In this document: one piece after another, positions 9,539-28,707 of the stretch
How positions within the stretch are numbered: position 1 is the first letter of the stretch
Layout: each line of letters opens with the position of its first letter
DNA from: Pseudomonadota bacterium
GTDB lineage: Bacteria > Pseudomonadota > Alphaproteobacteria > Rhodobacterales > Rhodobacteraceae
Reading direction: 5' to 3'
DNA length: 64,000 bases
Assembly: GCA_963205235.1 (NCBI GenBank)
Contig: CAUJIP010000116.1
Location: 62,001 to 126,000 of the forward strand
Notes under the pieces: generated by a model
What the model was told of the DNA's origin: nothing
Databases searched by the model: none
What the model saw: only the letters and a program-made list of their open reading frames with translations
Program-made: the position numbers and the translations under genes

Positions 9539-9581
9539 TTGACATCTGTCACGCGAGACAGGTAAAAATACTACTGGGTAT
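9539..9581 (+). promoter_or_regulatory. promoter and operator-like site A upstream of the nitronate monooxygenase operon
   Basis: A consensus -35 (TTGACA, 9539-9544) is followed 18 bp later by an A-rich -10-like hexamer (TAAAAA, 9563-9568). Overlapping the end of this -10 is the inverted repeat ATAC-TACTGG-GTAT (9568-9581). Exact ATAC-N6-GTAT copies also occur at 18231 and 18992, with near copies at 27723 and 27803. All are at promoters in this cluster, so a shared repressor site is likely, with the TetR-type protein encoded at 19208 as best candidate. Confidence 0.5.
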
Positions 9582-9624
9582 AAAAAACACCTATCAAGTC
9601 TGATTCGATCACAGGAGGCGAACC

Positions 9625-10737
9625 ATGAAGACAGAGGCCACCCGGATGTTCGGCATCGAGGCCCCGATCTTTGCCTTCAGCCATTGCCGCGATGTCGTTG
9701 TCGCCACCTCGAAGGCCGGTGGCTTCGGCGTGCTGGGGGCCGCCTGGATGACGCCGGAGCATCTTGAGCAGGAACTGAAGTGGATCGACGACCACATCGG
9801 CGGTCGGCCCTATGGCGTGGACATGGTCTTTTCCTCGACCTCCACCACGGTCAACTTCAAGGACAGCCCGCGCGAGGTTCTGCCAAAGGAGAACGTCGAT
9901 TTCATCAACGGCCTTCTCGATGCCGAAGGCATTCCGCCCCTGCCCGAGGACGAGGTGAAGGGCTGGTATGCAGACTACGCCCGCAACCTCAGCTTCAGCC
10001 CCGAAGTCAGCGAGGCTTTGCTGGACGTGGCGCTGAAACACCCGATCAAGCTGGTCGTCAGCGCCCTGGGCGTGGCGCCGGACCATGTGATCCAACGTGT
10101 GAAAGCGCAGGGGATCAAGTATGGCGGCATCGTCGGCAGCGTCCGTCAGGCGCAAAAGCAGGTCGAAGCGGGTGCCGACATCGTCATCGCGCAGGGCAGC
10201 GAGGCTGGCGGGCACACCGGCAAGATCACCTCGATGGTGCTGTGGCCCGAGATCGTCGATGCCGTGGCGCCGGTGCCGGTTCTGGCCGCAGGCGGAATCG
10301 GGCGCGGTCGGCAGGTGGCGGCGGCGCTGGCGCTTGGGACGGAAGGCGTCTGGTGCGGGTCGATCTGGCTGGGCACGACCGAAAGCGAGCTGACCCCGGA
10401 CATGCGCGAGGTGATCTATGCCGCGACGCCCGAGGATGCGGTCATCACGCTGGGCTACACCGGCAAACCCTGCCGCGCCGTCCGCAGCAAGTACACCGAG
10501 GCATGGTTGCGTCCCGATGCGCCCGCCCCGCTGAAACAGGTGCCGATGCAGTCGATCCTGTCGGGCGAACCCTTCCGCCGCGTCGAACGGGCGCGCCGCA
10601 AGGACTGGATGACCTATTCTGCCGGTCAGATCGTCGGTCGGATCAACGAACCCACCACGGTCAAGGCGGTGATCTACGACATGATCATGGAATACACCGA
10701 GACGATGGAGCGGGTTTCCCGCATGGCGGAGGAATAG
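9625..10737 (+). CDS. nitronate monooxygenase family FMN protein (NMO/2-nitropropane dioxygenase-like)
   Basis: This 370-aa TIM-barrel flavoprotein has the phosphate-binding AQGSEAGGHTG and PVLAAGGIGRGRQVAAALALG motifs characteristic of the NMO/FabK-like superfamily. Family members oxidise alkyl nitronates, but many homologues in catabolic clusters have unknown flavin-dependent roles. A strong AGGAGG site lies 8 bp before the ATG. It is the first gene of a four-gene operon with two amine-oxidising-type flavoproteins and a racemase-like protein. That context favours an oxidative step on an N-containing intermediate rather than general nitronate detoxification (inference). Confidence 0.85.
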   Translation: MKTEATRMFGIEAPIFAFSHCRDVVVATSKAGGFGVLGAAWMTPEHLEQELKWIDDHIGGRPYGVDMVFSSTSTTVNFKDSPREVLPKENVDFINGLLDAEGIPPLPEDEVKGWYADYARNLSFSPEVSEALLDVALKHPIKLVVSALGVAPDHVIQRVKAQGIKYGGIVGSVRQAQKQVEAGADIVIAQGSEAGGHTGKITSMVLWPEIVDAVAPVPVLAAGGIGRGRQVAAALALGTEGVWCGSIWLGTTESELTPDMREVIYAATPEDAVITLGYTGKPCRAVRSKYTEAWLRPDAPAPLKQVPMQSILSGEPFRRVERARRKDWMTYSAGQIVGRINEPTTVKAVIYDMIMEYTETMERVSRMAEE

Positions 10738-10742
10738 CCGCA

Positions 10743-12185
10743 ATGTCCGACCAGATACCGCTGCGGGTAACCGTGATCGGGGCCAGCGACGCAGGCTGCG
10801 CCATCGCGCTGAAGGCGCAGGCGGCGGGGCACCGCGTAACCCTGGTGGACGAACATCCTCAGACCATGGGGCAGATGTCGTTCGATGCGCCCTGGTTCTA
10901 TGGCGCGGCCCTTCCCGCCGCGTTGATGAACGCCAATGCCGTCGCCCAGGTGGTGCTGGAGGCCAATCCCGGCATCTTCGCCTGTTCCGAGGCCGGGGTT
11001 GACGTCCGCGTCGGCACCATCGCCTGGGGGGCCTTCCAGAACGGGCCGAACAGTCGCCATATCGGCGTGCCGAAGGTGGGTCTGGTCAGCGCCGAGGGCA
11101 ACGAGCTTCTGGACCATGACGTGCTGATCCTGGCCCCCGGCGTGCGCGACTTCGTGCCCTCATTCCGGGGGGCGGACCTGCCGGGCGTGTTCGGCGTCAA
11201 GGCGGGTGTGGCGTTCCTGGACCTCTACCAGTGCTACGAGGGCAAGCGGACCCTGGTCCTGGGCACCTCAAGCCGCGCCGTGGACTTCGTCAGGCGGGCC
11301 ATCGCGCGCGGGGTCGAGATCGTCGGAATGGTCGAGCCGGGCACCGCCTTTGCGGCTGGCGACGCGGCCCGCGATGAGATGGCGGCCCTTGGTGTGCCGG
11401 TGCACTACGCTTCGGCCCTGTTGGCGGCCGAGGGCAAGGTGGCCGTGACGGCTGCCCGGATCTGTGACCTGTCCGGTGGGGCCGAGATGGCCGTGGACTG
11501 TGACAGTCTTTGCCTGGCCATCGGGGTCCTGCCGAACATCGAGATTCCGGCGGCCATGGGATGCCGGATGCGGTTCGATGCGGGCGTGGGGTCGTGGCTG
11601 CCCAAAACCGACGCGGCCGGGCGTACCAGCCTGGAAAATGTGTTCTGGCTCTCCAGCTTTGCCAATGGCGGCGCGGACCCGAAGGTCGTTCTGGAAGCCA
11701 TGGCCGAGGGTGGCGCGATGGGGGATGTCCAGCCCGCCCCGCAGGCGGCCAGCGATCAGGGGGCCTATCTGCGCAGCTGGATCGACGCGCTGTATGCCTC
11801 CGGCGGTGGCGCGGTGACCTTGTGCAAATGCGAAAGCGTCACCCGCGATGATTTCCTGGGGCTGGCTCCGCCGACCTATCTGCATGGCGGCCTGCGACAC
11901 CCGCAGTCGCCCGTCACCGGACCCGAAGGCACCGGCCCGCGCGTCCATCAGGACCTCTTGAAGCGCATGACCCGGGTGGGCATGGGCCATTGCCAAGGCA
12001 AGCGCTGCCGCGACGAGGCGGCGCTGCTTTTGTCGCTGCGTTTCGGCATCGGACTCGAGGCGATCCGCCCCGGCAGCTATCGCTTTCCGGTCCGGCCCGT
12101 GGACCTGTCACTGATCGCCACTGCCGAGCCCGCCGGACTACGCTGGTCCTACTGGCTGCACGATCCCGAACCGGTGCTGGAATGA
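10743..12185 (+). CDS. FAD/NAD-type oxidoreductase with C-terminal [2Fe-2S]-binding domain (HcnB / opine oxidase subunit A-like)
   Basis: This 480-aa protein resembles the larger subunits of hydrogen cyanide synthase and opine oxidase: two Rossmann-type domains, then a BFD-like cluster-binding region with CKCES near the C-terminus followed by HCQGKRC (C-x-C ... C-x4-C). Both dinucleotide-binding glycine motifs are degenerate: GASDAG near residue 14 where GAGPAG is expected, and GTSSRA in the second. It probably pairs with the DAO-type protein encoded next as a membrane-associated amine or opine dehydrogenase. The third, small [2Fe-2S] subunit usual in such complexes is not seen here. The ATG lies 5 bp after the upstream stop. 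Confidence 0.82.
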   Translation: MSDQIPLRVTVIGASDAGCAIALKAQAAGHRVTLVDEHPQTMGQMSFDAPWFYGAALPAALMNANAVAQVVLEANPGIFACSEAGVDVRVGTIAWGAFQNGPNSRHIGVPKVGLVSAEGNELLDHDVLILAPGVRDFVPSFRGADLPGVFGVKAGVAFLDLYQCYEGKRTLVLGTSSRAVDFVRRAIARGVEIVGMVEPGTAFAAGDAARDEMAALGVPVHYASALLAAEGKVAVTAARICDLSGGAEMAVDCDSLCLAIGVLPNIEIPAAMGCRMRFDAGVGSWLPKTDAAGRTSLENVFWLSSFANGGADPKVVLEAMAEGGAMGDVQPAPQAASDQGAYLRSWIDALYASGGGAVTLCKCESVTRDDFLGLAPPTYLHGGLRHPQSPVTGPEGTGPRVHQDLLKRMTRVGMGHCQGKRCRDEAALLLSLRFGIGLEAIRPGSYRFPVRPVDLSLIATAEPAGLRWSYWLHDPEPVLE

Positions 12186-12212
12186 CTGGGCCCCTGCGCA
12201 AGAGGACATCCG

Positions 12213-13373
12213 ATGGAAACCTTTGACCTCATCGTCGTCGGCGCGGGCATCGTCGGCCTGTCGACTGCCTGGCGCGCGCGCAAGGCCGGGGCACGGGTCC
12301 TGGTGCTGGACAAGGGCGCGACGGCCTATGAGGCCTCCTCCCGCGCGACCGGCCTTCTCAGCCTGTGCGGGGCCTCGCCGCTGGAGGCGCCCTTGGCGCA
12401 AGAGGCCGAAAAGCTGTGGGACCGGCTGGACGAAGACCTCGGCTATCCGACCGAATGGTCGCAGAAGGGCCGCCTTTGGGTCGCCATCACCCCCGCCGAG
12501 CTGGACGAACTGAAGGTGACCTTCCAGACCTTCCAGCGGACCTATGACGACTTTGAACTCGTCGATGCCCAGACCTGCCGGTCGATCGTGCCCCCGCTGA
12601 CGCCGGACACGCTGGGCGGCCTCTACACCCGGCGGTCGGGCAACGCGAACCCGCAGCGCACCTCGCAGGCCTTTGCCTGGGCGTTTCAGGACCTGGGTGG
12701 CGAGATCCGCGAACATACCCCGGTGCTCGAAATCTTGGCCGAGGGCGGCAAGGTCAAGGGCGTGCGAACCCCGCAGGGTGAGGTGCATGCCGCTAGCGTC
12801 GTGGTCTGCGCCGGGGCGCATGCGGCCCCGCTGCTGGCCCCGCTGGGGCTGGAGTTTCCGGTGGCCCCGGTCCGCTTCGATGCCTTCGTGACCACCCCGC
12901 TGCCGCCGCTGTTCGAGGCGGCGCTGGTCGTCCACGGTCTTGCGGTCCGCCAGACCCTGCGCGGCAACATCCACCTGAACGGCGGGCCGCACGAATGGGT
13001 CGAGGCGGGGGTGGCCAACGACATGCCGAAGCCGGTGACGCCGCTGGTCCGCAACATCGCGAAACGCCTGATCGAGGTCTTCCCAAGCCTGCGCAGCGCG
13101 CAGATGCTGCGCAGCTGGTCCGGCATCCTTGATGTCACGCCAGATCAGGCAACGGTCGTTCACCCCTTCGACACGCCCTCGGGGCTGATCGCCTGTTCGT
13201 CCGCAGGGCACGGTTTCGGCATGGCACCGTCGCTGAGTGTCGCCCTGTCGGACCTGGCGTTGCACGGCAAGACCGACATGCCCGTCGCCGCCCTGACGCT
13301 GGACCGCTTTGGCAAGCTGCCAAAGGACTGGCGGCGGGCGTGGAACTGGCAGGCCGGAAACTACAACACCTGA
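12213..13373 (+). CDS. FAD-dependent oxidoreductase, DAO family (HcnC / opine oxidase subunit B-like)
   Basis: This 386-aa glycine/D-amino-acid oxidase-type flavoprotein has an N-terminal FAD motif (IVVGAGIVGLSTAWRA) and a C-terminal GHGFGMAPSLS segment that closes the FAD site. Proteins of this size paired with an HcnB-like partner oxidise secondary amines, D-amino acids or opines to imino acids, passing electrons to the chain. It lies 27 bp after its presumed partner and 18 bp before the racemase-like gene. Racemase plus oxidase would suit a chiral amino-acid-like substrate. Confidence 0.88.
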   Translation: METFDLIVVGAGIVGLSTAWRARKAGARVLVLDKGATAYEASSRATGLLSLCGASPLEAPLAQEAEKLWDRLDEDLGYPTEWSQKGRLWVAITPAELDELKVTFQTFQRTYDDFELVDAQTCRSIVPPLTPDTLGGLYTRRSGNANPQRTSQAFAWAFQDLGGEIREHTPVLEILAEGGKVKGVRTPQGEVHAASVVVCAGAHAAPLLAPLGLEFPVAPVRFDAFVTTPLPPLFEAALVVHGLAVRQTLRGNIHLNGGPHEWVEAGVANDMPKPVTPLVRNIAKRLIEVFPSLRSAQMLRSWSGILDVTPDQATVVHPFDTPSGLIACSSAGHGFGMAPSLSVALSDLALHGKTDMPVAALTLDRFGKLPKDWRRAWNWQAGNYNT

Positions 13374-13391
13374 CCCCGCAGGAGGAGCGTG

Positions 13392-14177
13392 ATGCGCAAG
13401 ATCAACTTCATCAACCCGTTCGGATCGACCGCCTATGACGAGGTTATCCGCAAGACCCTGACGCATTACTGCGCCGAGGGCACCGTGATGGACGTGACCC
13501 ACCTGACGAACTGTCCGCCCGACATCGACTTTTACTACAACAAGCACATGATCGAGCAGTCGCTGTTCGAAGAAGTGCTGCGGTCGGAAGAGGCGGGCTA
13601 TGACGCGGTGATCGTCGGTTGCCTGTATGACCCCGGCGTCCGGGTGGCGCGCGAGCTGGTTGATATCCCGGTCGTCGGGCCGTTGGAGGCCTCGTTCCAG
13701 ATGGCGGCGAACTTCGGTCACTCCACGATGGTGCTGACCGACCACCGCAAGGCCGTGCCTTATATCTACGACGAGGCCCGGCTGAATGCCCAAGGCGCCA
13801 CGATGCGCGGGGTCGATGCCATCGACTGGTTCGTCAAGGACATGATCAACGACCGCGCCGCGGTAGCCCGCGATGTGGTGACGCGGTCGCAAGAGGCGGC
13901 GGCGAAATTCGGGGCCGAGACGGTGATCATGGGCTGCACCATCATCGCCGCGATCTATCAGGAATATCTGATGGAAGGCGGCACCCCGTCGCCGGTGCCG
14001 ATCCTGAACCCGAACCTTCTGGCGCTGAAGATGGCCGAGGGGTTGGCGGACCTGCACCGCAAAGGCGGCTATTTCCTGGCGCGCAGCGGCTATTACATGA
14101 AGCCGACCGGCCATTTCGAGACCGAGTTCCACCGCGCCCGCCGGATCTGGAACGAGACCAAGCCGGATTTCAGCTGA
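13392..14177 (+). CDS. aspartate/glutamate/hydantoin racemase-like protein (copy 1)
   Basis: This 261-aa protein of the Asp/Glu/hydantoin racemase superfamily has two cysteine motifs, VGCLYDPG and MGCTIIAA, in the positions of the two catalytic cysteines that remove and return the alpha proton. ATG at 13392 is preferred because AGGAG lies 7 bp upstream; a GTG directly before it would be too close. It ends one base before a convergent gene. A paralogue sharing the KxNFINPFG-type N-terminus and both Cys motifs is encoded at 27871. Racemisation of a cyclic amide (hydantoin-like) or amino acid is plausible; maleate isomerase-like activity is an alternative. Confidence 0.85.
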   Translation: MRKINFINPFGSTAYDEVIRKTLTHYCAEGTVMDVTHLTNCPPDIDFYYNKHMIEQSLFEEVLRSEEAGYDAVIVGCLYDPGVRVARELVDIPVVGPLEASFQMAANFGHSTMVLTDHRKAVPYIYDEARLNAQGATMRGVDAIDWFVKDMINDRAAVARDVVTRSQEAAAKFGAETVIMGCTIIAAIYQEYLMEGGTPSPVPILNPNLLALKMAEGLADLHRKGGYFLARSGYYMKPTGHFETEFHRARRIWNETKPDFS

Positions 14178-14621
14178 TCACGGGCGACGGCGATGCAGGA
14201 CGGCCACCACGGCCGAAAACAGCGCCGTCCCGTGGCCGTCGAGAAGGCTTGCCTGCCACCGCACGACCCCGTGCGTCGGGCGCCTTGCAGAGGCGCGGGT
14301 CGATAGCACCGTGAAACGCGCGGTGATGGTCGTGTCGGGCACCAGCGGCTGAAGAAAGCGCATCTCGTCCACGCCAAGGCCGATCTCGGATTTCCCACGC
14401 AGCACGTCGGCATCATAGCCCAGACGCATCATCAGCGCGTGCATATGCGTGCCCGAGGCGACAAGCTGGCCAAAGGCGCTGTCCTTGGCGGCCCCGGCAT
14501 CGATGTGAAACGGCTGCGGGTCCCATAGCCGCGCGAAGGCGACGATTTCATCCTCTGTCACCAGGCGCGGCAGACTGGTCACGCTGTATCCGGGGGCAAG
14601 GTCTTCGAACCAGGGCTGCAT
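14178..14621 (-). CDS. MaoC-like hot-dog acyl dehydratase
   Basis: This 147-aa single hot-dog domain protein carries DPQPFHID, a variant of the MaoC hydratase motif, followed by ASGTHMHALMMRL. Such proteins hydrate or dehydrate enoyl-CoA/3-hydroxyacyl-CoA substrates. ATG 14621 lies 2 bp after the stop of the upstream thioesterase; the open frame continues farther upstream inside that gene. It is the last gene of the amino-acid-type ABC operon, and the gene end abuts the convergent racemase-like gene. Together with the thioesterase it suggests CoA-ester processing of the imported compound. Confidence 0.85.
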   Translation of the reverse strand: MQPWFEDLAPGYSVTSLPRLVTEDEIVAFARLWDPQPFHIDAGAAKDSAFGQLVASGTHMHALMMRLGYDADVLRGKSEIGLGVDEMRFLQPLVPDTTITARFTVLSTRASARRPTHGVVRWQASLLDGHGTALFSAVVAVLHRRRP

Positions 14622-14623
14622 GA

Positions 14624-15097
14624 TCAGGGCTTTCTGCGGCAGTTCGCCAGTGGGCGTTTCAGGACGGACCCGGTGCCTTCGGGCAGTGGCTGGTCTGCCA
14701 TGTCGGCATAGAGGTCCGCAATGCGCCCATGCATGAGCGCGTCCGCGCTTGCGACCTTGCCGTGGCAAACGTGGACGGACAGGTGTTCTCCCGTCGCCAG
14801 CAATGTTCCGTCCGTGTCGAACAGCCGGTGCAGCAGATGCAACCGTTTGTCATCATGGCCCAGAATCTCGGTTTCGGTGAAAAGCCCGGTGCCGAGCTGG
14901 CATTCCGCAAGATGGTGGATGTGGGTTTGCAGCGTAAAGAACGCACCTTCGGCGGCCTTGTCGAAATCGACCCCGATCAGGCCGTAAAGCGCGTCGGAGC
15001 TTTCGCCGAAGACCTGCAGATAGCGATGTTCGGTCATGTGGCCGTTGTAGTCCAACCACTCGGGCAGGACCGTGCCCTTCCAAAGCCGCAAGGTCAC
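14624..15097 (-). CDS. hot-dog thioesterase (betainyl-CoA thioesterase-like)
   Basis: This protein of about 157 aa has the thioesterase motif LPEWLDYNGHMTEHRYLQVFG. It resembles the thioesterase domain often fused to L-carnitine dehydrogenase, or its stand-alone form that splits betainyl-CoA. GTG at 15097 is chosen because AAGGAG lies 7 bp upstream; two further in-frame GTG codons (15100, 15103) are closer to that site and the frame is open to 15163. It is encoded between an amino-acid-type binding protein and a MaoC-like protein. Substrate specificity is inferred from resemblance only. Confidence 0.82.
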   Translation of the reverse strand: MTLRLWKGTVLPEWLDYNGHMTEHRYLQVFGESSDALYGLIGVDFDKAAEGAFFTLQTHIHHLAECQLGTGLFTETEILGHDDKRLHLLHRLFDTDGTLLATGEHLSVHVCHGKVASADALMHGRIADLYADMADQPLPEGTGSVLKRPLANCRRKP

Positions 15098-15162
15098 CAC
15101 CACACTCCTTTCAGGATCGTCAGACGTTGGCCCCGGGCATGACTGCCCAGGGCCTTGCTGCA

Positions 15163-15978
15163 TCAGGGGACCAGCCAGGGTTCGCCGGTTTCGGCCACGC
15201 GCGCGTCATAGCCCGCATCGGTGATCGCCTTGGTCAGGGCACCTTCAGCCACCAGACGTGCGATGGTGGCGTCGATTGCCGCCCCCAGCGCGTCATTGCC
15301 CTTGGTGTACAGGATGCCAGCCTGCGGCGCCTTGACCGACGCGGCGACGCGCTCGTCCGGCTGCGCCAGCTTGATCTGGATGCCTTCGTAGCCACCGGCA
15401 TTCGACTGGGCATAGGCGGCGTAGTTGTAGCCGTCAGCCGCAACGTCGATACGCCCGGCTGCCAGATCCTGTGCCAGCGCGACCGCGTCGGGATAGACCG
15501 ACAGGTTGTCACCGAACAGACCCTGCATTTCCTCGACCCACAGATAGCCTGCGACGGTGCCGACCTTCTTGCCGATCATGCCCTCGATGGTGTCGGTCCC
15601 GTCCATCGACAGGATGCCCATCGGGTCAAGGTAGATCGGGGCGCTGATGCCCAGGACTTCCGACCGCTTGGCGGTGCGGTTCCAGCTGCCGACGGCTAGG
15701 TCGGCCTTGCCCGCGATCACTGCCTGCGTCGTGGCGGCCGGGTCCATCACCAGAGCAACCATCTCCAGGCAGTTCTCCTCGGCAACGGCGGCGGCGATGC
15801 TGGGATCGATGCCGCTGACGCTGCCATCGGCTGCGACGATGTTGAAGGGCGGATAGTCATAGACCGCCACGGTCAGCTTGCCGGGATCGACGGTGGTCAA
15901 GGTGGGGGTGCAGTCCTGGGCCAGAACGGGGCTCAGGCTCAGCACAGTGACAGCGACGGAAGCCAGTAGTCTTTTCAT
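15163..15978 (-). CDS. periplasmic amino-acid-type substrate-binding protein (SBP family 3)
   Basis: This 271-aa protein has a signal peptide (MKRLLASVAVTVLSLSPVLAQ, cleavage near residue 20) and the bilobal SBP_bac_3 pattern: LTVAVYDYPPFNIVA start, AGKADLAVGSWNRTAKR, and a second-lobe AAGRIDVAADGYN. Such proteins capture amino acids, betaines or related zwitterions. It lies downstream of its two permeases and ATPase and upstream of the thioesterase gene. The operon start at 18085 carries operator-like site F. Confidence 0.9.
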   Translation of the reverse strand: MKRLLASVAVTVLSLSPVLAQDCTPTLTTVDPGKLTVAVYDYPPFNIVAADGSVSGIDPSIAAAVAEENCLEMVALVMDPAATTQAVIAGKADLAVGSWNRTAKRSEVLGISAPIYLDPMGILSMDGTDTIEGMIGKKVGTVAGYLWVEEMQGLFGDNLSVYPDAVALAQDLAAGRIDVAADGYNYAAYAQSNAGGYEGIQIKLAQPDERVAASVKAPQAGILYTKGNDALGAAIDATIARLVAEGALTKAITDAGYDARVAETGEPWLVP

Positions 15979-16017
15979 TTCAGTTCCCTCTCGGTTGGTG
16001 GTCGTCTTGAAGGCGTG

Positions 16018-16677
16018 TCAGGCTGCGTGCTTGCCGAGCCGCCGCTCGATCGCTGCCACCAGCAGGGTGGCAGGAATGCAGATCGCCGCGTAAAGCAGCG
16101 CCGCCAGAAGAAGGATCTCCATGTAGCGGAAGGTCATGGTGCCAATCAGCTGCGCCTTCGACAGCAGTTCGGGCAGCGCAATGGCAAAGCACAGCGACGA
16201 GGCCTGCAGCATCAGGATGGCAAAGCCCAGAAGCGCGGGCGCGGCGACCCGCATGCCCTGCGGCACGATCACAAAGCGCAGCGCATCCAGCCGGGACAGG
16301 CCCAGCGTCATCGCTGCCTCGCTTTGGCCGCGCGGCACGGCCTGCAGCCCGGCGCGAATGATCTCGCTGGTATAGGCGCAGGTCGTCCAGGACAGCGCCG
16401 CAATGGCCGACCCCATCGAACTGAGCTGCAGGCCCGAGTACGGCAGCCCGTAATAGGCCAGTTGCAGCAGGATCAGGGCCGGTGCGCCGCGACCGATCTC
16501 GACCACGGCCAGCGTCACCCAGCGCAGGGGGCGAACGGTCGATTGCACCAGAAGGGCGGCAACAAGGCCCAGCGGGACACCAATTGCCAGCGCGGCGGCG
16601 GTGACCTCAAGACTGACAACCATGCCAGAGATCAGGCTTGGCAGTGACTCGGCCCAGAAGGAAAGCGTCGCGTTCAT
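16018..16677 (-). CDS. amino-acid ABC transporter permease (HisM/GlnP type), second subunit
   Basis: This 219-aa protein has about five hydrophobic helices and the HisMQ-type cytoplasmic loop (QSEAAMTLGLSRLDALRFVIVPQ). ATG 16677 overlaps the end of the preceding permease by 4 bp. The same frame is open upstream to 17280 but that part is antisense to nothing and shadows the first permease. It forms the membrane channel with the permease at 16674-17321. Confidence 0.9.
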   Translation of the reverse strand: MNATLSFWAESLPSLISGMVVSLEVTAAALAIGVPLGLVAALLVQSTVRPLRWVTLAVVEIGRGAPALILLQLAYYGLPYSGLQLSSMGSAIAALSWTTCAYTSEIIRAGLQAVPRGQSEAAMTLGLSRLDALRFVIVPQGMRVAAPALLGFAILMLQASSLCFAIALPELLSKAQLIGTMTFRYMEILLLAALLYAAICIPATLLVAAIERRLGKHAA

Positions 16678-17321
16678 TGCGCCACCTTCATCCGCAAACG
16701 GGCATCCGCGATCCGGGCGACGGCCGCCAACGGCAGGCTTATCAGAATGTACAGCGCCCCGGCAAAGGCGAAGATCTGCAAGGATGCACCGAACTGCTTG
16801 CTGGCCAGGAACCCGGCAAGATAGGTGATCTCCATCACTCCGATGGTCGAGGCGATGGCGGAATCCTTCAGAAGGCCGATCAGATAGGTGGTGGCCGACG
16901 GCAGCGTGACGCGAAAGATCTGCGGTGCCATCACGTCCCTGAACTCGGACCAGGTCGACAGGCCCAGGGCATGCGACGCGTCCCATTGTCCGGGATGAAT
17001 GCTTTTCAGCGCGCCGCGGTAGATTTCCGCCATGTTCGCCGCCGTGATCACCCCAAGCGCGACTATTGCCGCCGGGACCGGGCCAATCGACAGCCAGCCC
17101 GACCCGATGCCGAAGTACAGAATGAAGATCCAGACGATCGGCGGAACCGACCGCAGGATCACGATCAGCACGACGGCGACCACATGCAAGGCGCGCGACC
17201 GCGACACATGCATCGCGCAGATCGGCACGCCCAGGGCGGCACCCAGCCCGAAGGCACCCAGCGTGACGATGATCGTCCACCAGATCCCACCGGCAATCAG
17301 AAGGGCATTTTCCGGGGTCAT
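16674..17321 (-). CDS. amino-acid ABC transporter permease (HisQ/GlnP type), first subunit
   Basis: This 215-aa integral membrane protein has the family loop [25 protein letters not shown] that contacts the ATPase. Start and stop overlap the neighbouring genes by 4 bp on both sides, showing tight co-translation of ATPase, permease 1 and permease 2. It belongs to the polar-amino-acid uptake family. Confidence 0.9.
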
Positions 17322-18269: not shown

Positions 18270-18323
18270 GCTGTATGGATGGTTTAACGGGCCGTGACGA
18301 ATAATTTGCAGACCCTAAAGACA

Positions 18324-19005: not shown

Positions 19006-19207
19006 ATTTTTCGACCAATGCGTCAGTTCAGTCAATAGGGATTCCGCCCAGAACCCGGTTTTCCCACGCGAATCCAATCCCGGAGAAGGATCGCATTGAC
19101 TCCAAAGTCGAAATATTTCTACTAGTCAGAACGAAAACATACGCAAATCCGTCCGATGGTGTGCCAGCCGATGCGCTGGCTCTGGCCCTTCGGCACAAGA
19201 GGTTGGA

Positions 19208-19813: not shown

Positions 19814-21246
19814 GTCGAAAGCTTCGCGTAGCGCTGAACCCAGGGGACGGCGCGTTCGATCTGGGCGGAAAGCCGCAGGATGGTATCCTCGGCGCCGAAC
19901 CGGCCGATCAGCTGCACCCCCACAGGCAACCCCTGCGCCGTCCAGTGCAGCGGCAGGCTGGCGGCGGGCTGGCCCGAGGCGTTGATGATCGCAAGGAACG
20001 CGGTATAGCGGCTTGCCTTGCGGCGGAAGCTTTCGAAATCCCCAGCCATCGACAGGGTGCCCAGCGGGGCTGGCAGCTGCGTCAGCGTGGGTGTCAGGAT
20101 GACGTCGCAATCCTGCATGTACAGCGCCATCTGCCGTGCGATGCCGTGGAACCGGGTGATCGCCAGGGCATAGGCCTCGGCGCCAAGACGGGTGCCCCGG
20201 TGATAGGCGTCAAGGATAGCAGGCTCCAGCAAGTCGCGCAGGTCGGGGGCGGGCTTGTTCAACAGGAAGCCGTTCACCGTCATCGCCACGCTGGCGCACA
20301 TCACGTCGATGATGGCACCGATGAAGGCCGCATACTTGATCGGCGGCGGCGCTTGCCGCACCACCTGATGGCCAAGGCCGACCAGCACCTGTTCGGCGCG
20401 GTCCACGGCGATCAGGCATTCGGGCGCGATCTCGATACCGTCCCAGGCCTCGGTCCAGGCGGCGATGCGCAGCGGGCGGTCGAACGGCAGGTCCAGCCGC
20501 GCCAGATAGGATTCGGGCCGCGAAGGTGCAGCGTAGGGCTGGCCCAGCTCCATCCCGGCGATGCCGTCCATCGCTGCGGCGGTGTCGCGCACGGTGCGGG
20601 TCAAGACCCCGTCCACCGCCAGCCCGCCCCACCCCTCACCACGCTGCGGGCCATAGGGCACCAGCCCGCGTGAGGGTTTCAGCCCATAAACCCCGCAACA
20701 TGCCGCCGGAATGCGGATCGACCCCCCGCCGTCGCTGCCATGGGCAATCGGCACCATCCCGGTCGCCACGGCAACCGCCGCGCCGCCGCTGGATCCGCCG
20801 CTGGATCGTGTCAGGTCCCAGGGGTTGCGCGTCGGGCCGCCGTTCTGCACCGCCTCGGTTGTGGGGGCCATGCAGAATTCCGGCACGGTCGTGCGGCCAA
20901 AGGGCAGGAAGCCATCGGCCAGAAACCGGGTCTGCAAGGTCGCGTCGATGGTCGAGGTCATGGCCCCGAACAGCCGCGATCCAACCGAGGACGGCAGGAA
21001 GGTGGAGGCAAGGCCGGAATCCTTCAACAGGAACGGCAGCGCGCCGAACTGTCCCTTCAGCTCAGCAGTCCGCGCCCGGTCAAGCGCCTCATCGCCCTTC
21101 ATATAGCACAGGGCATTCAACGGTGGATTGCGCGCCTCGGCCAGACGCAGCGCGCAATCCATCAGTTCGACGGCCCGGACTTCGCCTTGCCGCAACAGGT
21201 CAGCCAATGCCAGACCGTCAAGCTTCTCGTATTCGTCGCTGCGCAT
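19810..21246 (-). CDS. amidase (amidase signature family)
   Basis: This 478-aa amidase-signature enzyme has the complete Ser-cisSer-Lys triad: Lys75 in PFLLKDSG, Ser152 in GSSGGAA and Ser176 in GGSIRIP, with the usual 24-residue spacing between the serines. It hydrolyses a C-N amide bond in the cytoplasm. It is the last gene of the RidA operon and follows the acyl-CoA ligase gene by 6 bp. A hydrolase-then-ligase order would release and activate an acid. Glutamyl-tRNA amidotransferase function is unlikely as gatB/gatC are absent. Confidence 0.92.
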
Positions 21247-21252
21247 GGCCGG

Positions 21253-22773
21253 TCAAACCTGCCCTGCCGCAGCAAGCCGACGCGCCAGCGCGGCCTTGTC
21301 GATCTTGCCGGTCTTGCCGATGGGCAGGCTGGTTTCAAACAGATAGCGCCGCGGCACCTTGAAATCCGACAGCACCCGCGCGGCATGTGCTTCCAGCATC
21401 TCGGCAGAAACGGAAGACCCCGCCCGCAGAACCACAAAGGCGACCGGCACCTCGCCAAAGATTCGGTCGGGGCAGCCGACCACGGCCACGTCCTGCACGG
21501 CGGGGTGGCTTGCCAGCGCCTCTTCAACCTCGGCGGGCGAGATGTTGGCACCACCGCGGATGATGATGTCCTTGATGCGGCCAGTGATGAAATAGTTGCC
21601 GTCGGCATCGCGGCGGCCCAGATCGCCGGTGCGGAACAGATCGCCGACAAAGGCACTGGCGGTCTGCTCTGGCGCGTTCAGATAGCCCTGCATGGTGGCG
21701 GCGGCCCGGACCAGGATTTCGCCCTCTTCCCCCGGCGCGCAGTCGGTGCCATCGGGCCGCACGATCCGCACCTTCAGACCCGGCGCGGCCTTGCCCACCG
21801 CGCCTTCGGGCAGCGGGCGCGGATCATTGGCCAAGCGCCCGAAGACCGGGGTGGATTCCGTCATCGCGTAATAGTTCTGCAGGTCGGTCCCGAAGCGGGC
21901 GCTGAACCGTTGCCGGGTTTCCGCAGCCAGTGGCGCGCCCGCGCAGACCATGACCCGCACATGGCCAAGGTCGTAAGTCAGGTCCCGCTGCTCGCAATAG
22001 TCCAGCATCATCGAGAACATCGTCGGCACGCCGTGAAAGACGGTGACTCGATGGGCGACAAAAGCCTCCAGCACATCGCGCGGGTGAAAGCGCGGCAGGA
22101 TGACGACCGTGCCGCCGGATTGCAGACCGACAGCGGCGGCGGTGGACAAGCCATACAGATAGCCCAGCGGCAGCGCGACCAGCGTGATGTCACTTGCGCC
22201 AAGACCCCACATCTCGGCCAGCGCGCGGGGGGCCGCCGTCTGCGCGGCATGGTCCAGCACGATGGCCTTGGGCGTGCCAGTGGTGCCCGACGTGTAGATG
22301 ATCAGAAACCGGTCCTCGGGGCGCACATCGACGACTGGCAGCGGATCAAGGTCAGGGGTCGGTTCGCGCAGTACGTCCAGCGGGATCACCCGGCCATCCG
22401 GCACGGCCTCGGCGGCGACAGCGGCCACCGATTGATCGCAAAGCAGAAGGGCCGCCCCGCTGTGCTGGAAGGTATAGGCCACTTCGGCAGGGGTCAGGTT
22501 CGGGTTGACCGGCACGAAGACAGCCCCGATCCGCGCCGCCGCGTAATAGCACAGCATCAGTTCGGGCCGGTTCGGGCTGTAGGCCGCAAAGACCGAACCC
22601 TGACCCAGACCAAAGCCGCGCAGATGCCGAGCCGTGTCCTCGACCAGGGACATGAGGCGGGCGTAGCTGAGGGTTTCGTCGCCAAAGACGATGGCCGGAT
22701 GATCGGGCCGGATGGCGGCGGATTGCTCCAGCGCGGCAAAGACGGTTCGGGCAGGGTCGGCGGATGCGGTCAT
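21253..22773 (-). CDS. AMP-forming acyl-CoA ligase/synthetase
   Basis: This 506-aa ANL-superfamily enzyme has the P-loop IIYTSGTTGTPKA, the YAMTES motif, the TGDLGRRDADGNYF hinge region and a C-terminal catalytic lysine in LPIGKTGKIDK. It activates a carboxylic acid to its CoA ester through an acyl-adenylate. The acid type cannot be told. It sits between a polysaccharide deacetylase-like gene and the amidase gene, with an acyl-CoA dehydrogenase in the same operon. Confidence 0.92.
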   Translation of the reverse strand: MTASADPARTVFAALEQSAAIRPDHPAIVFGDETLSYARLMSLVEDTARHLRGFGLGQGSVFAAYSPNRPELMLCYYAAARIGAVFVPVNPNLTPAEVAYTFQHSGAALLLCDQSVAAVAAEAVPDGRVIPLDVLREPTPDLDPLPVVDVRPEDRFLIIYTSGTTGTPKAIVLDHAAQTAAPRALAEMWGLGASDITLVALPLGYLYGLSTAAAVGLQSGGTVVILPRFHPRDVLEAFVAHRVTVFHGVPTMFSMMLDYCEQRDLTYDLGHVRVMVCAGAPLAAETRQRFSARFGTDLQNYYAMTESTPVFGRLANDPRPLPEGAVGKAAPGLKVRIVRPDGTDCAPGEEGEILVRAAATMQGYLNAPEQTASAFVGDLFRTGDLGRRDADGNYFITGRIKDIIIRGGANISPAEVEEALASHPAVQDVAVVGCPDRIFGEVPVAFVVLRAGSSVSAEMLEAHAARVLSDFKVPRRYLFETSLPIGKTGKIDKAALARRLAAAGQV

Positions 22774-22789
22774 GTGCTTGGTCCGGGGA

Positions 22790-23629
22790 TCAGAGAGGCG
22801 CGGGCAGCCGGTCGTTCTGGCGCCGCGCCTCGGCCTCCAGCGTGCTGAACTGGACGCCGGGCTGCGTCTGCATGTGGTCGATCAGTCGCGACAGCATCTC
22901 GATGCGGGGTCCGCGACCGATGACCTGCGGGTGCATGGTCAGCGTGAAGACGCCGTCCGCCACATGGCGGTGGCAATAGTCGAACTCGTCCCGCCAGCAG
23001 GTGAAGACATGTTCGGTGCCATGCATCCCGCCGAAAAGGGGCCGGTTGGTGAAGGTGAAATAGGGATAGTCGTCCAGCTCCCAGGAGACCGGCATCTCGA
23101 TCAGCCGGGTGGTCTGCCCGGGGGTGAAAAGCTCTTCGTCGATCCGGTCGCCCTGCCGGGCGCGATACGGGGTGAAGTCATCGGCCATCATGCTGCTGTC
23201 ATAAAGAAAGCCGCGTTCCGTCAAGATGCCGACCGAGGCCGACGACAGATCCCACGCCGGAGAGCGATAGCCGACCGGCCGGAACCCGGACCCCAGCACG
23301 CCCTGCAGCTTGACGATGGATGCATCCAGCAGCCGGGCCTCTTCGGCGGGGTCAACGCCGATGGGGCTTTCGTGACAAAACCCATGCGCGCCGATCTCAT
23401 GCCCCTCGTCCAGAATGCGGCGGGTCTGGTCCGGGTAGGACGCTGCCGTATGGGCCGGCACGAAGAAGGTGGCCTTCACCCCCTTGTCGCGCAACAGGCC
23501 CAGCACCCGGCCCAGCCCCACGTTGGCACCGTATTCCCCGCGCGACACCGGCGTCGCCGAGGTCTGGCGAAACGTGCTGACCCACAAGGAAACGGCATCG
23601 AAATCAAAGGTCAGGCAGACCATGGTCAT
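22790..23629 (-). CDS. polysaccharide deacetylase-like amidohydrolase, cytosolic
   Basis: This 279-aa NodB-fold protein has the metal-binding TFDFD (Asp9/Asp11) and HxxxH (His82, His86 in GAHGFCHES) motifs. No signal peptide or membrane anchor is present, unlike cell-wall deacetylases. It most resembles the PuuE/allantoinase-like branch, which hydrolyses small cyclic or acylated amides. In an operon with an amidase, CoA ligase and acyl-CoA dehydrogenase, a role on a small N-acyl compound is more likely than on a polymer (inference). It overlaps the acyl-CoA dehydrogenase gene by 4 bp. Confidence 0.88.
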   Translation of the reverse strand: MTMVCLTFDFDAVSLWVSTFRQTSATPVSRGEYGANVGLGRVLGLLRDKGVKATFFVPAHTAASYPDQTRRILDEGHEIGAHGFCHESPIGVDPAEEARLLDASIVKLQGVLGSGFRPVGYRSPAWDLSSASVGILTERGFLYDSSMMADDFTPYRARQGDRIDEELFTPGQTTRLIEMPVSWELDDYPYFTFTNRPLFGGMHGTEHVFTCWRDEFDYCHRHVADGVFTLTMHPQVIGRGPRIEMLSRLIDHMQTQPGVQFSTLEAEARRQNDRLPAPL

Positions 23630-24807
23630 GGCAGCAATCCCAGATAGTCCATTTCCTCATCGCCCTGCATCCGGCGCGAGATCACCAGCCGGTTGATGTC
23701 GTTCGTCCCCTCGCCAATGGTGTAAAGCAGGGCCTCGCGGTGCAGGCGCTCCACCGTGTAATCCTGGACATAGCCCGCGCCGCCGTGGACGACGACCGCC
23801 TCATGCGCCACCGCCAGCGCCTCGTCCGAGGCGTGCATCTTGGCCATCGCCGAGATCATGTCGCAGCGACCACCGCTCTGTTTGATGCGGGCCGCCTCGC
23901 GGATGATCAGCCGCGCAGTGACCAGCCGGGTTGCCATGTTGGCCAACTTCAGCTGGATCGCCTGATGCTGGTTGATCGGCACGCCAAAGGCCCGGCGTTC
24001 AGCGGCATAGCGCTTTGCTTCCGACAAGGCATTGGCCGCAAGGCCCACGGCACTTGCTGCAATGGCGATGCGCCCGATTTCCAGCACTTCCATCAACTGC
24101 GCAAAGCCTTTGCCTTCGACCCCGCCCAACAGGTCGGCCATGGTCAGCGGCACCGCGTCCATCTCGATCTGGACGGTATCGACCAGCCCGAAGCCGGTCT
24201 TGTGAAAGGTCGTGGTCTGGCTGATCCCCGACCGCGACCTTTCCACCAGAAACAGCCCGAAACGTGGACGGGTGCCCGGTTCGGCCTGCGGCAGACGGGC
24301 CAGCGTCAGGAACAAGGTCGCCTTTGCTCCATTCGTCACATAAGTCTTCGAGGCGGTCAGCGCATAGCCACCCGCCTGCGCAACCACGGCCCCCCGGATC
24401 GCCTGCAGGTCTGACCCGCCGCTCGGTTCGGTCAGGCAAAGGGAACCGCGATGCTCGCCACTGGCCAGACCCGGCAGGTAACGCGCCTTCTGGTCGTCGG
24501 TGCCATGGGAGGCGATGGCATAGGCCACCGTGCTGTGGCTGTTGACATAGGCCGCCAGCGTCGTCCAGCCGCGCGACAGGACCTCCATCATCGCAGTCAG
24601 CGCCGGCACGCTGAGGCCGAGCCCGCCGAACGGCTCCGGCACGGCCATGCCGAACAGGCCAAGCGCCTTCATTTCCGCCACCAGGGCATCGGGATAGACG
24701 CCCTGGCGTTCCAGATCGCTGACATTGGGGCGCACACGTTCCTCGACAAAGCGCGAAACGGCTTCGACAAGCACCCGTTCGTCCCCGGTCAGGTCCTGCA
24801 GGATCAT
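23626..24807 (-). CDS. acyl-CoA dehydrogenase
   Basis: This 393-aa flavoenzyme has the ACD signatures [10 protein letters not shown] (mid-domain), an [12 protein letters not shown] block, and the C-terminal [20 protein letters not shown]. It introduces an alpha,beta double bond into an acyl-CoA and passes electrons to ETF. ATG 24807 overlaps the SDR gene stop by 4 bp; the open frame extends upstream only inside that gene. The enoyl-CoA formed could feed the MaoC-type hydratases of this cluster. Confidence 0.92.
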
Positions 24808-25592
24808 TTCGCCGTCCACCCGCCGTCGGCGGTAAAACACTCGCCGGTGACATAGCTTGCGTCGCCGCTGAGGAGGAAGGCGATGATCCCGGCCATCTCG
24901 TCCGGCTTGCCCTTGCGCTGCATCGGCACCGCGCGCTTGACCCAGTCGGGGTCGGCCCCGACACCCGCCATCGGCGGCGCATCCTTGCCCAGAAGACGCT
25001 GCGAGTTCGCCCGCACATTGGTCTCGATCGCGCCGGGGCAGATCGCGTTCACGGTCACGCCGTCCTTGGCATAGTAGCAGCCCAGATGCTTGGTCAGCCC
25101 GACCACGGCATGTTTGGACGCGGTATAGGACGCCCCGTCCGCCATCCCGACCAGACCGCCGATCGAGGCGACGTTGACGATGCGGCCCCGTCCTGCGGGC
25201 ACCATGTGGCGCAGCGCGGCGCGACAGGCCAGAAAGGTGCCGCGCGTGTTCACGTCCATGATGTGGTCCCACAGCGCATCGGTGGTGTCGATGCCGCTAG
25301 CAAAGCCGTCGAACACGGCAGCCGAGCAGATCAGCCCATCGATCCGCCCGTGATCACGCACCGCGCCGTCGACCAAAGCGTCGACCTGATCGGTCTTGCG
25401 CACGTCCGTGCGGTGAAACTCGGCCCGGCCCCCCGCATCGCGCACCGCCTTGACGGTTGCGGCACCCTCTTCCTCCAGAATGCCGCCGATGACGACGATT
25501 GCGCCCTGCTCAGCCAGCCGCAGCACTGCCGCCCGGCCGATTCCGGTCTCGCCGCCGGTGATGACGATGACGCGCCCCTTGTGTTCCGACAT
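24804..25592 (-). CDS. short-chain dehydrogenase/reductase (SDR)
   Basis: This 262-aa classical SDR has the cofactor motif TGGETGIG near residue 12, a catalytic [11 protein letters not shown] (Tyr-x3-Lys) and an NVASIGG segment. ATG 25592 has AGGAGAG just upstream. It is fourth-last in the RidA operon, next to the acyl-CoA dehydrogenase gene, which suits oxidation of a 3-hydroxyacyl-CoA or a hydroxy intermediate. The substrate is unknown. Confidence 0.9.
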
Positions 25593-25624
25593 CTTGCTCT
25601 CTCCTGTGTGGTGGCTGACCGGTT

Positions 25625-27235
25625 TCAGCGCAAACGCGCTGCCGGGAATTTTCGCCCAAGATCCGAAAGGATCTCGCGCGCTGCATTGTGGCCGGGAACC
25701 CCGGTGACCCCGCCGCCGGGGTGGCAGGCCGCGCCGCAAAGATACATGTTCCGAACCGGAGTCCGGTAGTCGGCATAATGCGCGATGGGGCGGCGGAAGA
25801 AGACCTGATCCAGGCTCATCTCGCCGTGATGGACATGGCCGCCGGTCATGGCGAACATCGCCTCGATGTCGGGCGGTGTCAGGATCTGCGCCTGCAGCAC
25901 GTCCTTGTCAAAGCCCGGCGCATAGCGGGTGATCTGCGCCAGCACGATGTCCAGCAGTTCCTGCCGGGTTTCGTCGGTCCATTCGCGACCCTTCAGCTTA
26001 TAGGGAACGTGGCCGCCCATGATCTGCACGACATGCTGTCCTTCGGGGGCCACGGTCGGGTCAAAGGCGCTGGGCGTGGTGATCCACAGATAGGGACGCC
26101 GCGACATCTCGCCGCCGCGCGCCATGGCGAAGGCTTCTTCCAACTCGTCCATGTTTTCCGCCAGCGTGACCGAACCGGGGTTCGGCTCGTTCAGGTGGCG
26201 GGCGTCATAGGCGGCCCAGCGCGGCAGCGCCTTGGTCGCAAGGTTGATCTTGAACGCGATGGAATCGGTCCGGTGGCGATCGATCTGTCCCACCACCTCG
26301 TCGGTCAGATGCTCTTTTCCGATCAGGTCAAGATAGGTGATCTTCGCCCCCGTGTTCGAGATCACGACCCCCGCCTCGATCCGGCGACCGTCATCCAGGA
26401 TTACCCCGCAGGCCTTGCCGTCGCGGATATCGACCCGTGCCACCGAATGGCCGGTAATCAACTCGGCCCCGGCCTTGCTGGCGACCCGCCACAGCGCGTC
26501 GGAAATCGCGCCCATGCCGCCCTTGACCAGTCCGCCACCGCCCGCAGCCGTGGTGTTGTCGCGCATCAGCGGCCGCGCCAGCACATAGGCCGATCCCGGC
26601 GACTTCGGGCTGATCACCCCCGCCGCGCCCGAGGCATAGCTGCCAAGGATCGTCAGCATCTGGTCGCTTTCGAACCAGCGGCGCAGATAGTCGTGGGCGC
26701 TGAGCGTCAGCAGATCCCAAAGGTCATAGACCCGCTTGCCGATGTCCTTCATCCGCCAGGCCACGGCCATCGTCTTGGCGATGTCCTTGACGCGCTTGGT
26801 CGTCGGATCGACCGGGGTTTCGAACAGCAAGCGCCGCACGAAGGGAATCAGGTCGGCCATATGGGCCACGAACTTCGGATAGGCCGCCGCATCGCGCTCC
26901 GAGAACTGGGCGACCTCGCGCAGGAACTGCGCCTCGTCGATGAAATAGACCAGGCTGCGCCCGTCCTCGAACGGGTGGAACGACGGGGGCACGGTGATGA
27001 CCTCGACGCCGTTGTTCATCAGATCAAGGTCCAGCATGATCTTGGGCTGCAACAGCGACATCCAGTACGACGCGACCGAGACCTTGAAGCCCGGCCAGAC
27101 CTCGCGGGTGATGGCCGCCCCCCCGACAAAGGGCTGGCGTTCCACCAGGCAGACCTTGACACCGGCCTTGGCCAGATAGGCGGCGCAGACCAGTCCGTTA
27201 TGACCGGCGCCGATGATGACAGCATCGTATTTCAT
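25625..27235 (-). CDS. phytoene-dehydrogenase-like FAD oxidoreductase (PYROXD2-type)
   Basis: This 536-aa protein has an N-terminal FAD motif ([21 protein letters not shown]) and a C-terminal [22 protein letters not shown]-closing segment. This is the layout of the phytoene desaturase/PYROXD2 family, whose bacterial members usually have unknown substrates. No carotenoid genes are nearby, so pigment synthesis is unlikely. It is second in the operon, 16 bp after RidA. An amine or acyl-amide oxidation producing an imine that RidA could remove is possible (inference). Confidence 0.88.
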
Positions 27236-27251
27236 CGCTGGCTTTCCTTGC

Positions 27252-27641
27252 TTACGGCGCGATTGCAATCACTTCGGACTCGACCAGAAGCCGGTCGTCA
27301 TAAAGACCGGCCTGAACCATCACGCTGGCGGGCGGGCAGTCGGCGTTGAAATAGCGCAGCCGCACGGCGCGGAAGGTCGCCATGAACTCGGGGTCGTAAG
27401 ACTTGATGTAGCTGGTCATTCGGGCGACGTGCGCGAAGGTCAGGCCCGCTTCGGCCAGGGTCCGCTTCAGGTTTTCGAACAGGGCGACGACCTGATCCTC
27501 GACCGAACTGGTCACAGGATTACCATCAGGTCCGGTGCCGACATGCCCAGTGCTGACCAGAACGCCGCGCTCGCGGTCGATCACGGCCATCGACACGCCG
27601 GGCCATTTTGCTTCCGGGGGATTCAGAGCGGAAAGGGTCAT
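27252..27641 (-). CDS. RidA/YjgF-like protein without the canonical arginine
   Basis: This 129-aa protein has the RidA fold pattern (GVLVSTGHVGTG, LAEAGLTFAHVARMTSYI). RidA enzymes hydrolyse reactive enamines/imines released by PLP and FAD enzymes. The usual P-A-R-S segment with the catalytic arginine reads P-P-A-S here, so it would belong to the Rid groups lacking imine deaminase activity. ATG 27641 is chosen because the open frame upstream runs through promoter sequence. It is first in a seven-gene operon under site D. Confidence 0.82.
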   Translation of the reverse strand: MTLSALNPPEAKWPGVSMAVIDRERGVLVSTGHVGTGPDGNPVTSSVEDQVVALFENLKRTLAEAGLTFAHVARMTSYIKSYDPEFMATFRAVRLRYFNADCPPASVMVQAGLYDDRLLVESEVIAIAP

Positions 27642-27707
27642 CTGGCCTCCATGCCGTGCTATCGGGTTCCTGGCGCCACGGGATCGGGCGCTGCGGAATA
27701 GAGACTC

Positions 27708-27737
27708 ACGATACAGATAAAAATACTCATTGGTCAA
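27708..27737 (-). promoter_or_regulatory. promoter with operator-like site D for the RidA operon
   Basis: Minus-strand -35 TTGACC (plus 27732-27737) and -10 TATCGT (27708-27713) with 18 bp spacing. Inside it lies ATAC-TCATTG-GTCA (27723-27736), a 6-of-8 match to the ATAC-N6-GTAT repeat of sites A, B and F. Confidence 0.45.
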
Positions 27738-27783
27738 TATTGGGTTTCGACAGTTTTCCGCGCGCCGCCTGGATGGAGAAATG

Positions 27784-27830
27784 TTGACTGCGTCGGTAAA
27801 TTCGACTACTTGGTATGCTTATCAGGTAGT
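27784..27830 (+). promoter_or_regulatory. promoter with operator-like site E for the second racemase operon
   Basis: A -35 TTGACT (27784-27789) is followed 17 bp later by TACTTG (27807-27812). The -10 is embedded in CGAC-TACTTG-GTAT (27803-27816), which closely matches site A. The wider interval 27805-27830 is an imperfect 26-bp palindrome with 10 of 13 positions paired (outer arms ACTAC/GTAGT). Confidence 0.5.
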
Positions 27831-28674: not shown

Positions 28675-28707
28675 ACCTGTCCGCACCCGGAACCGAAAGG
28701 AAAGACC

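Follow-up and report, generated by a model that had tools for sequence, protein, structure and literature searches.

The 64,000-nucleotide stretch of DNA analysed here (the window), from a bacterium of the family Rhodobacteraceae, contains a 20-kb unannotated catabolic region that surrounds a gene for a TetR-family regulator (19208-19813). The question raised by this locus is whether that regulator controls the operons around it, and through which DNA sites. The initial annotation of the sequence had proposed the palindrome ATAC-N6-GTAT as the shared operator of one candidate TetR regulon. Our results support that proposal, through conservation with orthologues of the regulator, the first rank of the ATAC half-site in their loci and a half-site change linked to the recognition helix, with corrections to the placement of two sites (18231 and 18992) and to the genome-wide count. 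We put at roughly 87% the probability that the TetR protein locally represses its own gene and the catabolic operons around it, acting through a predicted 14-bp palindrome. Gene and palindromes together look like a compact, self-contained genetic switch, which recurs in scattered and distantly related bacteria.

Three exact copies of ATAC-N6-GTAT (at 9568, 18231 and 18992), and no fourth, are present in the 64 kb, as had been claimed. The accompanying estimate of less than one copy expected by chance also held, since 100 dinucleotide shuffles gave a mean of 0.05 and at most 1. The sequence does contain, as written, the two variants listed at 27723 (ATACTCATTGGTCA) and 27803 (CGACTACTTGGTAT); each is two mismatches away from ATAC-N6-GTAT, which is why neither appears in a one-mismatch scan of the window (4 matches, 2.8 expected). 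In the whole genome (3.79 Mb), we counted 8 exact copies versus 5 for the reversed control, and each of 31 other genomes of the genus holds 2-10, so that a genome-wide enrichment of the bare palindrome is not supported. Three of the 8 copies fall within 9.4 kb, and four of the five found elsewhere lie inside coding frames, as given by a simple gene caller. With a total so near background, the signal is one of local clustering, not of genome-wide enrichment. A genome-wide motif search, which had been suggested as a check, consequently gives a divided answer: the bare palindrome is close to background, while its local clustering is exceptional (3 versus 0.05). For the tighter form ATACY-N4-RGTAT, the counts were 78 versus 40 for the reversed control, summed over 17 genomes that carry the TetR gene. 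As a separate observation, one genome of the same class (G037) contained 64 exact copies versus 12 for the control, the largest excess among 61 genomes; this may be due to a separate broad regulator, or to a repeat.

A scan of genome contigs yielded 42 loci, 16 of which (L041-L056) hold TetR orthologues with 48-97% identity. Their hosts are Rhodobacteraceae, Shinella, Rhizobium and other Rhizobiales, Mesorhizobium, a proteobacterial metagenome-assembled genome, Paraburkholderia, Ralstonia and Pseudomonas. In these 16 loci, ATAC at a spacer of 6 ranked first of 256 half-sites, with 16 sites seen versus 1.4 expected, and each of the other 14 spacers between 0 and 14 gave 0-4 sites. In the 26 other loci, which include a possible orthologue fragment from Rhizobium tropici (L058, 56% identity over 86 residues), the same half-site ranked 114th. 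When 5376 half-site and spacer pairs were scanned without any seed, ATAC-N6 ranked third in 16 distant loci; the two pairs above it, TCGA-N17-TCGA and TCGT-N5-ACGA, look like codon effects. A more fitting consensus for the predicted operator is WKACY-N4-RGTMW, flanked by A/T-rich DNA, and ATAC-N6-GTAT represents one form of it.

To score sites, we used a palindromic matrix seeded with the palindrome of the initial annotation and trained on 16 loci from outside the Rhodobacteraceae only (16 seeds, 102 final sites); the window was unseen during training. Eleven window positions exceeded 12 bits, two of them being overlapping registers of one site (Table 1; the remaining position, 18310, scored 12.1), and all lay within 9.5-29.9 kb. 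The best match outside the cluster reached 9.1 bits. Sixty first-order Markov sequences contained a mean of 0.4 such positions, and for 300 column-permuted matrices the mean was 0.9 and the maximum 6. Ranked by the 14-bp core only, the best places were 27723, 18231, 9568, 29896, 62178 (outside the cluster) and 27803, and 18992 came tenth. The spacer, shuffle and permuted-column controls exclude chance and base composition as a full explanation.

The position of the sites was examined in 20 loci (the window included), taking as a site any matrix score above 11 bits. Kin loci (e.g., L045-L048 with L083, L055 with L056, and L084 with L085) were each counted singly. As many as 107 of the 138 sites were intergenic, versus 12.2% of the DNA. 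A site was counted for a gene when it lay no more than 400 bp upstream, and the denominators are the loci in which the gene was found by tblastn. By this measure, sites precede the RidA gene in 16/16 loci, the second racemase gene in 6/6, the nitronate monooxygenase (NMO) gene in 5/6, the ABC-transporter operon in 10/16, TetR in 13/20, the MaoC-like gene in 9/14 and the citryl-CoA-lyase gene in 9/13. They are less frequent before the SDR gene (5/13), the deacetylase-fold hydrolase (4/16), permease 1 (2/15), the first racemase (1/8) and the thioesterase (1/6). No site was found within this distance of the amidase (0/13), AMP ligase (0/16), acyl-CoA dehydrogenase (0/10), solute-binding protein (0/11), DAO (0/7), HcnB-like (0/6), Crt-like oxidase (0/9), permease 2 (0/14), second MaoC (0/3), SDR2 (0/5) or OYE (0/2) genes. 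The predicted operator, therefore, stands at operon heads and not before most inner genes. Lack of conservation upstream of orthologous operons had been named beforehand as what would refute the regulon; the contrast between RidA (16/16) and amidase (0/13), with the first rank of ATAC, speaks for conservation.

In the window itself, promoter-like hexamers overlap or abut the sites at 18231, 18992/19012 and 27723/27702. The site at 18231 overlaps a -10-like element of the ABC-transporter operon (TTTACA-N18-TATACT, minus strand, 18269-18240), and 18992 abuts TTGACT-N18-AAAAAT (minus strand, 19035-19006). Upstream of RidA (TTGACC-N18-TATCGT, minus strand, 27737-27708), the -35-like hexamer is covered by 27723 and the -10-like one by 27702. 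To this extent the reported association with promoters stands. At 9568, whose centre is 50 bp ahead of the NMO-like gene, the promoter scanner listed only a minus-strand match; by eye, a plus-strand TTGACA can be made out at 9539-9544, and an A-rich -10 directly next to the site. The placement of 18231 in the MaoC/TetR divergent gap proved wrong: it is 18992, with the weaker 19012, that sits there, and 18231 belongs to the transporter operon, about 150 bp from an ATG that we read at 18085. Sites 18992, 19012 and 19115 lie upstream of the TetR gene as candidate own-promoter sites, the arrangement that autoregulation would require of the sequence. Site 29896 adjoins no conserved gene start; a 94-aa open reading frame on the minus strand (29594-29878) follows it, for which the fetched loci hold no homologue except our own genome's copy (in L010).

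The TetR protein might bind all these sites and yet govern a split regulon, in which only some operons respond or in which it acts as an activator or co-regulator at some of them. The uneven site strength (12 to 28 bits), the distance of 18231 from its ATG and the lack of an obvious target for 29896 are in favour of this option, which we nevertheless deem unlikely, as the overlap or contact of several sites with promoter-like elements is what one would expect of a repressor.

Many sites come in pairs. We found 27 pairs spaced by 20-21 bp, as compared to a mean of 1.1 and a maximum of 6 in 2000 sets jittered by up to 60 bp; such pairs comprise 53 of the 138 sites and occur in 16 of the 20 loci. 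The window has two, 18992/19012 and 27702/27723, and counterparts of 19012 exist at L041:5323 and at position 18433 of the joined L086+L087 stretch. Since 20-21 bp corresponds to about two helical turns, two dimers could share one face of the DNA, and at 27723/27702 they would cover both the -35 and the -10. The paired arrangement, the wider consensus and the extra site at 29896 are new with respect to the initial annotation.

From the position of the sites, the most likely mode of action would be repression by promoter occlusion. A TetR dimer would recognize WKACY-N4-RGTMW (14 bp, with A/T-rich flanks) over or beside the promoters of TetR, NMO/oxidase, ABC-transporter, MaoC, RidA-to-amidase and racemase/citryl-CoA-lyase units, possibly with cooperativity between paired dimers. 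Once the substrate enters the cell, the AMP ligase of the cluster would convert it into a CoA ester which, by analogy with MbdR (see below), may act as the inducer, releasing the repressor so that the operons open together.

Which protein binds is suggested by the recognition helix. This reads (G/D)YTK(S/A)VVYYYF in 18 of the 20 TetR proteins and GFTKSI(V/I)YYYM in the other two, from L084 and L085. GAC half-sites account for 1 of 28 in L084/L085 versus 126 of 248 in the others (Fisher p 3e-7, with no correction for kinship). The half-site thus changes where the helix changes, which points to TetR, but L084 and L085 are kin and the two changes may represent one evolutionary event. Also in favour of TetR, loci L091-L093, which were picked by the PuuE-like hydrolase rather than by TetR, lack any site above 10 bits. 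A different regulator in or near the cluster could instead own the palindromes, TetR being a bystander. An RpiR-type helix-turn-helix gene (8369-9235, Pfam) does adjoin operon 1, just upstream of it, and every orthologue locus was picked by TetR similarity, so that linkage to TetR and linkage to the cluster are not fully separated. We regard this as quite improbable, because the sites lie upstream of TetR itself in the 13 loci mentioned above, because of the helix-linked change, and because the gene tables of L083-L085, albeit incomplete, list no RpiR gene (they do contain a LysR gene in L084 and, at the L083 edge, an FCD-domain gene).

Besides this mode of selection, several observations count against a TetR-specific operator. 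The matrix was seeded with the very palindrome under study, and the statistics on the 138 sites include its training loci (16 of the 20). The bare palindrome is near background in our genome and the 31 congeners, and the wider pattern gives 12 matches in our genome versus 18 for the reversed control, with 3 of the 12 in the cluster. The unseeded scan places ATAC-N6 only at rank 36 in four Rhodobacteraceae stretches. Single chance scores can be high (19.6 bits in the 60 Markov sequences, 22.5 with the 300 permuted matrices); a single match can hence be due to chance, whereas the Markov and permuted-matrix controls show that the number and clustering of matches are not. Sites 19012, 19115 and 27702 lean on their A/T-rich flanks, ranking 12, 13 and 15 by core alone, and two places far outside the cluster then take ranks 5 and 8. 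Loci outside the orthologue set also have sites of 15-22 bits (e.g., L070, L077, L094, L064 and L015); as L064, L077 and L015 reach 15-18 bits, a matrix score by itself is no proof of a site. TetR itself has an upstream site in only 13 of 20 loci. Across the genes counted, misses are partly due to contig ends, which cut several loci inside the cluster. Among remoter homologues (30-37% identity), sites were weak or absent, or the palindromes were different ones: L088 has 12.4 bits before its TetR gene, L070 and L094 have other palindromes, and L089 has nothing above 10 bits.

That the sites are simply promoter elements (TTGACY-like -35, TATACT-like -10) with A/T-rich gaps, palindromic by chance, is very improbable: TGAC and ATAC do resemble parts of such hexamers, and promoter-like hexamers do overlap several sites, but the spacer is strictly 6, none of the 300 permuted matrices of the same composition matched the observed count, 27723, 18231, 9568 and 29896 keep the first four ranks by core alone, and the 26 other loci have no excess of the exact palindrome.

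Table 1. Genes, operons and predicted operator sites in the window. Operon limits were inferred from gene order and spacing; scores (bits) are from the held-out matrix and ranks refer to the 64 kb.
Feature	Position	Strand	Basis or score
TetR-family regulator, 201 aa	19208..19813	+	Pfam TetR_N + TetR_C_24, above gathering scores
Operon 1: NMO-like, HcnB-like, DAO-family oxidase, racemase family	9625..14177	+	Pfam
Operon 2: ABC ATPase, two permeases, family-3 solute-binding protein, 4HBT thioesterase, MaoC-like	14178..18085	-	Pfam
MaoC-like hydratase gene, divergent from TetR	18419..18913	-	Pfam
Operon 3, RidA-family gene first	19810..27641	-	Pfam; gene order
Operon 4: Asp/Glu racemase-family gene and citryl-CoA-lyase-like gene	27871..29520	+	Pfam
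Operator A, ATACTACTGGGTAT	9568..9581	.	Exact copy; 23.4, rank 2
Operator B, ATACCCACGAGTAT	18231..18244	.	Exact copy; 20.2, rank 3
Operator C, ATACCTTTATGTAT, MaoC/TetR divergent gap	18992..19005	.	Exact copy; only 13.4
C', weaker partner, 20 bp from C	19012..19025	.	14.2
Weak TetR-proximal site, overlapping registers 19115 and 19119	19115..19132	.	14.6 and 13.4; owed partly to A/T-rich flanks
E', weaker partner, 21 bp from E	27702..27715	.	13.5; over -10-like hexamer of RidA operon
Operator E, ATACTCATTGGTCA	27723..27736	.	28.0, rank 1 (also with core alone); over -35-like hexamer of RidA operon
Operator F, CGACTACTTGGTAT, upstream of second Asp/Glu racemase-family gene	27803..27816	.	18.0, rank 5
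Additional site, ATACTCACAATTCT, absent from the initial annotation	29896..29909	.	19.3, rank 4

The window TetR scores 60.8 bits for TetR_N and 91.5 bits for TetR_C_24. None of the 19 listed NCBIfam families of named TetR equivalogs (SACE_7040, MftR, FadR and others) reaches its cut-off, the best score being 68.2 bits versus a cut-off of 250. Its sequence relatives in the PDB include 3vpr (E 7e-17), presumably PfmR, and CoA-linked TetR repressors such as KstR2 of mycobacteria (4w97, E 4.5e-12) and MbdR (4uds, E 3.5e-9). PfmR and KstR2 both regulate CoA-linked metabolism. KstR2 controls steroid genes; like MbdR and PaaR, it is an acyl-CoA-responsive TetR repressor. A regulator of this class would be released by a CoA ester that its own pathway produces, and an AMP-dependent ligase is present in the candidate regulated cluster.

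In terms of operator consensus, the sites recall those of SbtR (TTHA0167), a TetR-family regulator of Thermus thermophilus HB8 with the published 14-mer TGACYrnnyRGTCA (PMC7022988). Length, four-base centre and the (T)GACY/RGTC(A) half-sites agree with one form found here. Unlike in SbtR, the second half-site base is T about as often as G (ATACY alongside TGACY), the sites are often paired at 20-21 bp, and the predicted targets make up one catabolic cluster. TGAC-N6-GTCA occurs 19 times versus 6.0 expected in the 16 distant loci (rank 11 of 5376), behind the stronger ATAC form; the unseeded scan puts TGAC-N6 at rank 4751 in the four Rhodobacteraceae stretches. According to that source, the SbtR consensus also fits the central 14 bases of many sites of PfmR (TTHB023) of T. 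thermophilus, which differs from the present regulator in that it controls fatty-acid genes (PMC7022988).

A second likeness is to MbdR of Azoarcus sp. CIB, involved in 3-methylbenzoate metabolism. Its published description includes ATAC/GTAT half-sites, multiple predicted operators within the mbdR promoter itself, operator coverage of the -10 and -35, and the CoA ester of the substrate as inducer (PMC4424350). Both systems combine a TetR-type regulator and ATAC/GTAT half-sites with a gene cluster that includes an ABC transporter and a CoA ligase; they differ in enzymes, substrate and spacer, N10 in MbdR and N6 here. Orthology to MbdR was ruled out by this spacing, as the 16 orthologue loci contain 16 ATAC sites at N6 but just 2 at N10. 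With regard to the pairs, two TetR-family dimers can bind one operator region in the case of FadR (Sulfolobus acidocaldarius) and QacR (PMC6449355). There, the second dimer sits beside or over the same inverted repeat, while here two separate 14-bp palindromes are 20-21 bp apart.

By Pfam, operon 1 encodes a nitronate-monooxygenase-like protein, a pyridine-nucleotide-disulphide oxidoreductase (which we take to be HcnB-like), an FAD-dependent DAO-family oxidase and a member of the Asp/Glu/hydantoin racemase family. In operon 3, RidA is followed by a Crt-like FAD oxidoreductase, an SDR, an acyl-CoA dehydrogenase, a PuuE-like hydrolase of polysaccharide-deacetylase fold (Pfam), an AMP-dependent acyl-CoA ligase and an amidase. 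The citryl-CoA-lyase-like protein of operon 4 has citryl-CoA lyase 6hxp as a PDB relative (E 1.4e-30), and the divergent MaoC-like gene has a start with a ribosome-binding site. The combination of a PuuE-like ring-amide hydrolase with amidase, acyl-CoA ligase, dehydrogenase, hydratase and lyase suggests, as substrate, a nitrogen heterocycle or cyclic imide degraded via a CoA ester. A homologue of the PuuE-like hydrolase (~45% identity) is found on a plasmid of Paenarthrobacter sp. YJN-5, presumably an iprodione degrader, and a cyclic-imide or hydantoin role of this enzyme is a lead. Next to the RpiR-type gene, ABC-transporter genes and peptidase-S58-family genes form a group of their own (3358-8248).

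Related catabolic clusters surround TetR orthologues in Rhodobacteraceae, Rhizobiales, Burkholderiales and Pseudomonas; by tblastn, much of the cluster is found around most of L041-L056, and least in L054. Plasmids provided three further TetR loci (L083, 66% identity; L084, 43%; L085, 37%). The gene is otherwise rare: at E 1e-45 it was detected in our own genome only, both among 394 genomes drawn evenly from the family and among 398 from the phylum, and of the 31 other genomes of the genus just G009 carries it, with 89% identity (locus L042 and G009 C61 are one contig). L085 derives from pRetMIM1e of Rhizobium etli Mim1, where the cluster comes with genes for ETF, GABA transaminase and succinate-semialdehyde dehydrogenase. 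The genome paper describes pRetMIM1e as the symbiosis plasmid (PMC4125696). Mimosine degradation, prompted by this plasmid copy, was dropped as a candidate, since that paper reports no mid or pyd genes (PMC4125696).

A broader interpretation, which we hold tentatively and with the odds somewhat against it, is that this is an undescribed mobile catabolic module acting on a nitrogen heterocycle or on a cyclic imide. It would be scattered over alpha-, beta- and gammaproteobacteria, plasmid-borne in some rhizobia (once on a symbiosis plasmid), and run by one TetR, with palindromes doubled at 20-21 bp, two dimers per DNA face and the TGAC half-site forming part of the -35. Among the matches listed in open-licence literature (titles and abstract openings), we found no description of the gene cluster or regulon, and the accessible part of a regulon survey of Proteobacteria names no regulator of this cluster (PMC5343134). 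What was a 20-kb unannotated catabolic region is now a candidate regulon, for which we can name a regulator, a held-out-tested operator consensus and the operons concerned. A reporter on 27723 or 9568 would offer a means to hunt for the substrate, and the doubled operators with the helix-linked half-site change provide natural material, drawn from alpha-, beta- and gammaproteobacteria, for studying how TetR proteins recognize DNA. Finally, TTACCGGTAAGTAA or TTACCGTTAGGTAA palindromes stand about 60 bp or less before the matched TetR homologues at L070:9954, L075:7804 and L064:2469, and the operator, to judge by such candidate sites, may vary regularly across the wider TetR family.

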